Shown: positions 1,032 to 30,297 of the stretch, piece after piece | Layout: every line of letters begins with the position of its first letter | How positions within the stretch are numbered: position 1 is the stretch's first letter | Source of the DNA: Allomuricauda sp. ARW1Y1 | GTDB taxonomy: Bacteria > Bacteroidota > Bacteroidia > Flavobacteriales > Flavobacteriaceae | Assembly: GCF_013407935.1 (NCBI RefSeq) | Contig: NZ_JACBZU010000003.1 | Span: 186,001-250,000, forward strand | Direction: 5' to 3' | DNA length: 64,000 bases | Translations under genes and position numbers: made by a program | Notes under the pieces: generated by a model | Database searches by the model: none | What the model was told of the DNA's origin: nothing | The model's input: only the letters and a program-made list of their open reading frames with translations

Positions 1032-1075
1032 TGATAAAGATCATTGGCGAAAAAGTGAAATTTTGGCGAAATTTG
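1032..1075 (+). promoter_or_regulatory. FNR-type box plus -7 box for the cbpA-cbpM operon
   Basis: A perfect palindrome TGAT-AAAG-ATCA spans 1032-1043. A TAnnTTTG-like element, GAAATTTG (5 of 6 fixed bases), spans 1068-1075. The centres are 34 bp apart, which places the palindrome near -41 from the predicted start site. The gene begins at 1122. This is one of nine sites of the same type in the window; regulation by the local receiver-Crp protein is inferred. Confidence 0.55.
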
Positions 1076-1121
1076 ATAGGATGACCTGTGACATCAACAG
1101 GCTTGAATCTAATAGCGTACT

Positions 1122-2033
1122 ATGGACTTTATTGATTATTACAAGGTTTTGGGAGTAGATAAAAAGGCATCTACCGAAGAGATTAAAAAGGCATACCGCA
1201 AACTGGCCCGAAAGTACCATCCGGACTTGAACCCTAATGATGTAGAGGCCGAAATGAACTTTAAAAGGGTGAACGAAGCCAATGAGGTGCTATCAGACTC
1301 GGATAAGCGGAAAAAATATGATGAATACGGTAAGGACTGGCAGCATGCGGAGGAGTTTGAAAAAGCAAAACGTGCGAGGTCGCAGCAGGCGAACCAAGGG
1401 GATTATGGAGGATATACCTATAGTTCGGGCGGTTCGGCCCAGGATTTTTCCGATTTTTTTGAATCCATGTTCGGGGGCAGGTCGGCCGGTTTTGGTGGCA
1501 GTGGACAACGCGTCCGATTTAGGGGACAAGACTACAATGCAGAGCTGAAATTGTCCCTTATGGATGTGTATACGACGCAAAAGCAGACCCTTACCGTAAA
1601 TGGGAAGCATATCCGCTTGACCATTCCAGCGGGAATCGAGGATGGCCAGACCATCAAAATAGCAGGTCATGGAGGCCCAGGAGTGGAGGGCGGTCCTGCA
1701 GGTGACCTTTACATTACTTTTTCGATTGTCAACAACACCGATTTTAGGAGAGACGGAGCCAACCTTTACAAGACAGTGGAAATTCCTTTGACAAAAGCTG
1801 TTTTGGGCGGTGAAATCCAAGTGGAGACCTTAACGGGCAAGGTAAAATTGAAAGTAGCGCCCGGAACAGACAATGGTACCCAAGTCAAACTGAAAGGAAA
1901 GGGTTTTCCCAAGTATAAAAAGGAGGGGCAATTCGGTGACCTGTATTTGACCTATCAAGTAAAAGTCCCCAAAAATTTGACCGCAGAGCAAAAGGAGCTT
2001 TTTGAAGCATTGGAGAAAACCAACCTAAAATAA
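1122..2033 (+). CDS. cbpA: DnaJ-family co-chaperone, CbpA type
   Basis: The 303-residue protein has an N-terminal J-domain (residues 5-70) with the catalytic H33-P34-D35 motif that stimulates DnaK ATPase. A Gly/Phe-rich linker with FSDFFESMFGG follows at about 85-125, then the two C-terminal beta-sandwich substrate-binding domains (from about 130). The Cys-rich zinc finger of true DnaJ is absent, so it is a CbpA/DjlA-like class II J-protein acting in the cytoplasm. The next gene, 6 bp downstream, encodes its CbpM-type modulator, which supports the CbpA assignment. An FNR-type box lies 79 bp upstream. Confidence 0.9.
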   Translation: MDFIDYYKVLGVDKKASTEEIKKAYRKLARKYHPDLNPNDVEAEMNFKRVNEANEVLSDSDKRKKYDEYGKDWQHAEEFEKAKRARSQQANQGDYGGYTYSSGGSAQDFSDFFESMFGGRSAGFGGSGQRVRFRGQDYNAELKLSLMDVYTTQKQTLTVNGKHIRLTIPAGIEDGQTIKIAGHGGPGVEGGPAGDLYITFSIVNNTDFRRDGANLYKTVEIPLTKAVLGGEIQVETLTGKVKLKVAPGTDNGTQVKLKGKGFPKYKKEGQFGDLYLTYQVKVPKNLTAEQKELFEALEKTNLK

Positions 2034-2039
2034 AAAGAC

Positions 2040-2330
2040 ATGAAAAAAGAAAACTACATATCCATAGAGACCTTTTGTGAGCTTCACGGGGTAGGGGAAT
2101 CTTTTGTGTACTCCATGTACGAGTATGAGATTTTACAAATGAAAGATAAACCCGACAAAAGAATGCTTCATGTGGAAGAGCTTCCCGTATTGGAAAAAAT
2201 GGTGCGTTTGCACAACGAGCTCGATATTAATCCCGAAGGGATACAGGCCATACATCATCTTTTGGGACAAGTGGAAAGTCTGCAAGAAGAAGTCGCTGCC
2301 CTGAAACGTAAATTGGATGCATTAAAATGA
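2040..2330 (+). CDS. cbpM: Chaperone modulator CbpM family protein
   Basis: The 96-residue protein has a MerR-like helix-turn-helix half (ISIETFCELHGV at 7-18) followed by a helical segment and a coiled-coil C-terminus (EEVAALKRKLDALK). CbpM proteins bind the J-domain of CbpA and inhibit both its co-chaperone and DNA-binding activity. Placement 6 bp after cbpA and the right length for the family support the call. It is probably co-transcribed from the box upstream of cbpA. Confidence 0.85.
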   Translation: MKKENYISIETFCELHGVGESFVYSMYEYEILQMKDKPDKRMLHVEELPVLEKMVRLHNELDINPEGIQAIHHLLGQVESLQEEVAALKRKLDALK

Positions 2331-29986: not shown

Positions 29987-30028
29987 CTTTTTATCTATTA
30001 AGAGATTGATACATGCTAATTGTTCCTG

Positions 30029-30071
30029 TAAAATTACTGGCTAACCTATCCGCAGAATATGATATAAATCA
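30029..30071 (-). promoter_or_regulatory. Perfect FNR-type box plus -7 box for ppdK
   Basis: TGAT-ATAA-ATCA spans 30060-30071. On the minus strand TAATTTTA (5 of 6 fixed bases of TAnnTTTG) spans 30036-30029. Centres are 33 bp apart, and the predicted start is near 30022, 36 bp before the ATG. Confidence 0.6.
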
Positions 30072-30254
30072 GGATTTTGACCAAGAAGGGTTTGATAACG
30101 TGGTCTTTAAGAGGGCAAATTAAAAATGCGCCAAATTTTTGCGAAAATTTTATCCAAATGAGGTTGAAATACCATCAAAATGTATTGGAAAACCAAAAAA
30201 AATAAAAAAATATGGGGTGCTTTTTCCTTTGAAATCAAGGCTTTAGGAAATAAC

Positions 30255-30297
30255 TGACATATATCATCTTTTAAAAATATTTCGCAATAGATCTTTG
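30255..30297 (+). promoter_or_regulatory. FNR-type box plus -7 box for yceI-porin
   Basis: TGAC-ATAT-ATCA spans 30255-30266, one base from symmetry. GATCTTTG (5 of 6 fixed bases) spans 30290-30297. Centres are 33 bp apart, and the ATG at 30319 lies just downstream. Confidence 0.5.

Follow-up and report, generated by a model that had tools for sequence, protein, structure and literature searches.

In the FNR regulon of E. coli and the Anr regulon of P. aeruginosa, an activator of the CRP/FNR type acts from the class II position on a palindrome with the core TGAT-N4-ATCA (the E. coli FNR consensus, TTGAT-N4-ATCAA, includes an outer T and A), and the targets comprise the cbb3 oxidase, hemN and genes for universal stress proteins (usp genes). 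In the rhizobial FixL-FixJ-FixK relay the cbb3 oxidase genes are reached via the PAS kinase FixL, via FixJ, which consists of a receiver and a LuxR-type output, and via the FNR-like reader FixK. Here we describe how a 64-kb stretch of DNA from Allomuricauda sp. ARW1Y1 of the Flavobacteriaceae (G000:C3:186001-250000, hereafter the window; genome size 3.53 Mb) compares with these systems. An FNR-type palindrome, TGAY-N4-RTCA, recurs in the window upstream of usp and other genes at a fixed distance from the Bacteroidota promoter element TAnnTTTG, and among these genes lie those for a PAS histidine kinase and for a response regulator in which a receiver is fused to a CRP-type part (REC-CRP). We consider it quite probable that these sites belong to a family-wide regulon, a low-oxygen programme, the class II palindrome of which would be read both by the kinase-driven REC-CRP and by a stand-alone FNR.

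Relative to the E. coli FNR system, the flavobacterial palindrome is flanked by A and T (ATGAY...RTCAT, not TTGAT...ATCAA), the promoter element is TAnnTTTG, and one of the two candidate readers, REC-CRP, has a receiver in place of the cysteine-bearing N-terminus of FNR. With the rhizobial relay the system has in common a FixL-resembling PAS kinase, a receiver, an FNR-like reader and cbb3 oxidase targets, but here receiver and reader are one polypeptide, with cNMP_binding plus HTH_Crp_2 as output instead of the LuxR-type output of FixJ, such that the separate steps of FixJ and FixK have become one. A cluster of several usp genes with a heat-shock protein is likewise tied to low oxygen in the low-oxygen-activated (lxa) locus of Burkholderia and in the DosR regulon of M. 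tuberculosis, which encodes 10 universal stress proteins (PMC6127331, in the portion available); those systems belong to other phyla and have other regulators, and the available portions of their description contain no REC-CRP. In Myxococcus, two-component control of the cbb3 oxidase, hemN and a universal stress protein is exerted by NmpRSTU, the regulator of which is NtrC-like and not of the CRP/FNR type, according to the available portion of its description (PMC11841059).

Oxygen control of transcription has been little described in the Bacteroidota, the promoters and sigma factor of which depart from those of E. coli, and the open-access literature, as covered by titles and the openings of abstracts (subscription papers were outside the scope), yielded no description of this regulon or of a Bacteroidota REC-CRP regulator. 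The regulon offers an exact promoter geometry with start sites that are predicted to the base, a named pair of candidate readers, and a collection of natural knock-outs, i.e. genomes with FNR, with REC-CRP, with both or with neither. It suggests how a ligand-type FNR and a two-component FNR can serve one DNA box, and predicts low-oxygen-responsive genes for many environmental species.

A palindrome at a fixed distance from the promoter box

The window contains 17 copies of TGAY-N4-RTCA, against 5.6 +/- 2.5 expected from dinucleotide shuffles (none of 100 shuffles reached 17). Eleven of them are located in the approximately 5.2 kb of non-coding DNA, as judged from a rough coding map that consists of our own open reading frame (ORF) calls and in which 'intergenic' means outside the longest non-overlapping ORFs. 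These eleven comprise nine sites that had been listed in the original prediction, an earlier reading of the same window, with coordinates that a pattern search found to be correct throughout, plus the sites 48217 and 51772; the six in-gene copies are found at 3274, 6071, 22157, 24483, 33858 and 34399. The perfect form TGAT-N4-ATCA occurs 11 times where 1.9 copies are expected, and not four times as counted initially, since five copies in genes and the intergenic ones at 48217 and 51772 had been overlooked.

At six of the nine sites the original prediction placed a TAnnTTTG-like box with at least five of the six fixed bases at 33-34 bp, centre to centre, and a site-by-site check bore this out. 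A distance of 33 bp corresponds to a gap of 23 bp between palindrome and box; this gap occurs, with five or six matching bases, at 2345, 3756, 7287, 30060 and 30255, and the sixth site, 1032, has its box at gap 24. The two further sites with weaker boxes at 33 bp were recovered as well (9023 and 9580). For the ninth site, 6366, the claim that there is no good box holds with respect to TAnnTTTG (three of six bases) but not with respect to TAnnTTGY, five of the six bases of which are present in CATATTGC at the exact position. TAnnTTGY (SM5) is a promoter class of F. psychrophilum that is printed at -12 to -5, where the -7 box of that species is printed too (PMC9723704, in the part available). 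With the -7 box so placed, an offset of 33 bp would bring the centre of the palindrome to -41.5, i.e. to the class II position. An nAnnTTGY octamer is found at the usp promoter after REC-CRP in the window and in four close named relatives (L214, L215, L216 and L231), in three of which the palindrome is unchanged; this promoter has drifted from TAnnTTTG to nAnnTTGY in an Allomuricauda-type clade with retention of the position.

The same spacing extends over the whole genome. The palindrome combined with TAnnTTTG at a gap of 22-25 gives 19 exact matches and none for the reversed-pattern control; over a gap range of 8-38 there are 25 exact matches (reversed control: 3), 16 of which fall at gap 23, and with one mismatch gap 23 yields 41 matches against 2 in the control. 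All 16 palindromes of the exact gap-23 sites lie between ORF calls (15 in the genome stretches that were read, one in the window). Among their neighbours are the stand-alone FNR gene beside ccoI, hemN, ompW, dps, the gene of a ribosome hibernation factor, a usp pair and a usp-transporter, a biotin-carboxylase and a nos operon; near-perfect sites occur in the ccoI-ccoNO interval and at further genes of this cluster. Ten target proteins were assigned through Pfam domains (a fused COX1-FixO, HemN, S30AE, ferritin-like, nos propeller, Rrf2, OmpW, PEPCK, Usp and a metal P-type ATPase); the labels of the other targets are our own reading of the sequences.

The surroundings of REC-CRP were compared in stretches of 12-20 kb from 20 genomes, 18 of which possess REC-CRP and lack FNR (REC-only genomes). 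The boxes are far from equally frequent in coding sequence: the 31 kb of intergenic sequence contain 93 palindromes, the 353 kb of coding sequence 20. Directly after REC-CRP, and pointing at a usp gene, 19 of the 20 stretches have a palindrome with a perfect TAnnTTTG at gap 23, and in the 18 FNR-less stretches there are 72 matches of at least five of six bases at this gap, compared to nine or fewer at any other gap from 0 to 60. Orthologous promoters in named genomes agree: of 79 loci (one of 80 was too short), 75 have the palindrome behind REC-CRP and 70 the spaced box as well, whereas among 398 equally long windows taken inside REC-CRP genes as a control, 5 contain the palindrome; the named loci and the 20 stretches probably overlap in part, so that these two counts are not independent. 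The closest named relative among the matches listed is Allomuricauda aurea (88% identity in REC-CRP). Elsewhere, boxes matching targets of the window are found before yceI (G037 and G039), ppdK (G083) and cbpA (G050). In two genomes with two REC-CRP matches each (L083, i.e. G010, and L082, i.e. G093), we observed extra usp genes with spaced boxes of their own near REC-CRP.

The notion of one regulon with class II geometry is thus strongly supported by the spacing, the intergenic location and the conserved orthologous promoters; what changes is the extent, as by far the greater part of the regulon lies outside the window.

Candidate readers of the palindrome

The genome encodes three proteins with a HTH_Crp_2 match, namely REC-CRP, the FNR beside ccoI and a SulP-linked protein (C1:725319), the last of which was rejected as a reader because its helix, THQEIAYDLHTSRVVISR, lacks the Glu. 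The recognition helices of REC-CRP and FNR (ATESLIRTLS and ATESAIRIIS) share the pattern ATES(L/A)IR. REC-CRP had been put forward as the reader, and we agree that it would bind the boxes, for genomes with REC-CRP but without FNR still carry them; the amendment is that a second protein, the stand-alone FNR, probably reads the same boxes, since its recognition helix is nearly that of REC-CRP.

In REC-CRP the receiver residues D9, D10, D52 and K104 (the phospho-acceptor Asp, the Lys and the acidic pair) are invariant in 10 of 10 sequences, and the receiver forms the N-terminus where a cysteine cluster might have stood. In CRP, cAMP is contacted by Glu and Arg-Ser residues; an alignment with CRP chains has Phe for the Glu of GELGLF in REC-CRP, and no Arg-Ser pair. 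No NCBIfam family matched REC-CRP over the cut-off (best 25 of 111). The stand-alone FNR (P0001) has FNR as its best match in the PDB and scores 116 bits against the NCBIfam Fnr model, the cut-off of which is 228. Of the four cysteines that serve the [4Fe-4S] cluster of FNR, the flavobacterial FNR (L008:4025-4714) retains the CxxC and the counterpart of C122 but has no equivalent of the third N-terminal Cys of the E. coli protein; another Cys (C54), shared by the 10 orthologues with the best scores, our own included (L024-L033), might reflect a different set of cluster ligands. The recognition helix has Ile at the place of the Ser of FNR, and among 30 sampled sites of each class (the sample is described below) the palindrome is followed by T in 90% of the REC-only and 80% of the FNR-only ones; given the known chemistry of FNR, the two together fit the change from TTGAT to ATGAY.

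To relate sites to readers, we looked for the exact gap-23 site, FNR and REC-CRP in 100 Flavobacteriaceae genomes that represent one genus each, and all of them enter the counts below. There are 788 sites, against 14 for the reversed pattern. Genomes with neither regulator have on average 0.33 sites (12 genomes, range 0-2), those with FNR only 6.5 (37 genomes, 1-15), those with REC-CRP only 8.5 (18 genomes, 2-16) and those with both 12.8 (25 genomes, 3-26). Eight genomes with weaker or unlisted FNR-like matches were kept apart (mean 1.0 in the two without and 11.5 in the six with REC-CRP). The presence of sites across genomes thus depends on having at least one of the two regulators, and REC-CRP alone appears to be enough to keep the boxes under selection (REC-only versus neither: Mann-Whitney p=4e-6). 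In a regression along a rimO tree, with the root of the site count as response and with genome size and weaker FNR-like hits as predictors next to the two regulators, the t values of REC-CRP and FNR are 7.8 and 4.8 when lambda takes its best-fitting value (0), and 7.6 and 3.7 under full phylogenetic covariance.

The sites themselves were sampled in both classes: 30 of 153 REC-only sites, with each of the 18 genomes represented, and 30 of 152 sites of the FNR-only class, from 23 of its 37 genomes. Between ORFs lie 28 of the former and 24 of the latter, the remainder being inside a predicted ORF. Both samples contain hemN, cco genes, ompW, the hibernation factor HPF, rrf2 and a nos-linked ORF; usp and cbpA were seen only in the REC-only sample, which is in part because usp genes adjoin REC-CRP.

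In the case of the kinase, 78 of 80 loci could be surveyed (two were too short upstream), and in 77 of these it is encoded directly upstream of REC-CRP. Its first PAS domain finds FixL (E 7.5e-13) and DosP as best matches in the PDB, and the proximal haem His is present in 74 of the 76 aligned kinases with a residue at that position, the one in the window included; Pfam found a second PAS and no membrane domain. The neighbouring kinase resembles known haem sensors, and it probably senses oxygen, through haem.

Oxygen as the probable signal and the competing explanations

Taken together, the set is likely to be a low-oxygen survival programme. Falling oxygen would cause the PAS kinase, probably through haem, to phosphorylate the REC domain of REC-CRP, the CRP part of which would then dimerise on (A)TGAY-N4-RTCA(T) at -41.5 and contact RNA polymerase, thereby switching on universal stress proteins, chaperones, enzymes that form phosphoenolpyruvate, the cbb3 oxidase and oxygen-independent haem synthesis, as well as N2O reductase, Dps and ribosome hibernation; these promoters would receive a second input from FNR, through the sensor of that protein. 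Oxygen limitation as the signal, and the sign of regulation, we infer from the promoter geometry and the target functions. A bolder version, on which we are evenly divided, is that the FixL-FixJ-FixK relay has been collapsed in the Flavobacteriaceae to a haem-PAS kinase and a phosphorylation-gated FNR, namely REC-CRP, acting on the class II box that the iron-sulphur-type FNR uses as well; the pair would have replaced FNR in 18 of the 100 genera and joined it in 25, where it would about double the regulon by a universal-stress/chaperone survival branch.

Several observations weigh against the proposed regulon or its readers. Site 6366 lacks TAnnTTTG, and the intergenic perfect palindromes at 48217-48228 and 51772-51783 have no TAnnTTTG-like box at 33-34 bp. 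REC-CRP is present in G083, which has just 2 sites, and in G039 (L068) no site follows REC-CRP directly. Two of the 76 aligned kinases are without the haem His, and the distal Arg of FixL, which is shared by 57 of the 77 aligned kinases that have a residue at this position, is replaced by Leu in the kinase of the window. The tree behind the regression is that of one gene and covers 98 genomes (G003 and G047, without a rimO match over threshold, were left out), and on it the REC-only state takes 13 changes for 18 tips, with a mean of 16.7 and a minimum of 13 in 500 shuffles; the REC-only genomes are clustered, yet still form many separate groups, and by this clustering the 18 are not fully independent. 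A ~195-aa CRP protein with a RVETVIR helix, which might read similar DNA, occurs in 8 of the 18. DNA binding, phosphorylation, haem and oxygen response of the REC-CRP/kinase system we infer from sequence. Finally, a meta-regulon study (PMC8510549, in the part available) predicts that a CRP/FNR homologue in a metagenome-assembled genome of the Flavobacteriales senses carbon, although this may be another protein.

The RVETVIR protein bears on the suggestion that only FNR-type proteins read the box, with REC-CRP acting indirectly or on another target and a different CRP-family protein keeping the boxes in REC-only genomes, a suggestion that agrees with the retention of boxes in FNR-only genomes. 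We surveyed helices in the over-cut-off HTH_Crp_2 matches of the 18 REC-only genomes, and below the cut-off in the ten without RVETVIR protein, in L212 and, for genomes with neither regulator, in one match each from seven. The RVETVIR family was met in nine examined genomes (L181, L189, L192, L195, L201, L204, L206, L209 and L165). The ten REC-only genomes that have no other over-cut-off HTH_Crp_2 protein with a similar helix nevertheless keep 2-16 sites (5, 16, 16, 11, 15, 2, 9, 4, 5 and 6), whereas G073, with RVETVIR and neither FNR nor REC-CRP, has 2. At least three of these ten (G076, G083 and G096) have a weak match to a ~200-aa family (L393, L394 and L399) with an E..SR helix, a degenerate HTH and up to 6 copies per genome, found in 20 of 30 genomes searched. 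The boxes do not track this family: 7 of the 12 genomes that lack both regulators have it and carry 0-2 sites, whereas in 5 of the 18 REC-only genomes, with 8-11 sites, no member was found; G065 and G086, in which neither family shows up, keep 11 and 9 sites. As REC-CRP is moreover the strongest predictor of site count after phylogenetic correction and has the box directly behind its gene in most named loci, we regard a purely FNR-type readout as improbable, and FNR as sole reader was rejected on the site counts by regulator class and the helix survey.

The more serious competitor accepts the regulon and both readers and makes the kinase respond to redox, energy or another cue, so that the regulon would be a general energy or stress response. 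The Usp, Hsp20 and DnaJ-type genes are stress genes, PAS domains with this type of sequence are widespread and in many cases do not bind haem, and the missing distal Arg in the kinase of the window points the same way. On the other side, the targets common to FNR-only genomes (cco, hemN and nos) are oxygen-linked, FixL and DosP are the best matches of the PAS among solved structures, and low oxygen raises the cbb3 oxidase and haem biosynthesis in F. psychrophilum, as the regulon predicts (PMC9723704, in the part available; the words Crp and Fnr are absent from its main text). We consider this alternative possible but rather unlikely compared to oxygen sensing. That the boxes are repressor sites is a thought invited by the fact that spacing alone does not give the sign of regulation; with a palindrome centre that would fall at -41.5, the classical activating position, and with target functions that agree with induction, it is very unlikely. 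Chance enrichment in A+T-rich intergenic DNA would explain why an A+T-rich palindrome has most of its window copies outside genes, but not the near-zero reversed-pattern controls, the gap peak at exactly 23 or the nearly site-free genomes with neither regulator, and its probability is negligible; chance or composition as the cause of the boxes was rejected by the shuffle and reversed-pattern controls, genome-wide and in the 100 genomes.

Features of the window

Palindromes, promoter boxes and regulator genes around the regulon sites of the window
Feature	Position	Strand	Paired box	Context
FNR-type box 1032-1043	1032..1075	+	-7-like GAAATTTG, 1068-1075, gap 24 (5/6)	upstream of cbpA-like 1122-2033 and cbpM-like 2040-2330 (domain matches)
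box 2345-2356	2345..2387	+	TACCTTTA, 2380-2387, gap 23	upstream of Usp gene 2472-3293
box 3756-3767	3725..3767	-	minus-strand TATATTTA, 3725-3732, gap 23	toward terB-like gene 3294-3701; between terB-like and kinase genes
PAS-PAS-HisKA-HATPase histidine kinase	3786..5315	+		first PAS resembles FixL/DosP haem PAS
REC + cNMP_binding + HTH_Crp_2 response regulator (REC-CRP)	5293..6339	+		candidate box reader
box TGATATTTATCA, 6366-6377	6366..6408	+	CATATTGC (nAnnTTGY-like), 6401-6408	upstream of Usp gene 6427-7260; corresponds to the box that is best conserved at this locus
box 7287-7298	7287..7329	+	perfect 6/6 TAGCTTTG, 7322-7329, gap 23	upstream of Usp gene 7358-8200
box 9023-9034	9023..9065	+	weak TATTTTAT (4/6), 9058-9065, gap 23	upstream of ORF 9137
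box 9580-9591	9580..9622	+	weak TACATTCA (4/6), 9615-9622, gap 23	at start of ORF 9609-10055
box 30060-30071	30029..30071	-	minus-strand TAATTTTA, 30029-30036, gap 23	toward ppdK 27266-29986
box 30255-30266	30255..30297	+	GATCTTTG, 30290-30297, gap 23	toward YceI gene 30295-30921 and ORF 30957-32219

The ppdK product matches the NCBIfam pyruvate phosphate dikinase model over its cut-off. The gene at 3294-3701 has no Pfam or NCBIfam match, and its designation as terB-like is a label taken over from the original prediction. The ORF at 9137-9564, after the usp genes, consists of a 98-aa frame and a second overlapping frame, and its matches in relatives are 134-137 aa long (L071, L077, L080, L082 and L083); it looks to have been broken by a frameshift or a sequence error. 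A tRNA-like sequence, spotted by eye, lies between genes at ~34010-34085.

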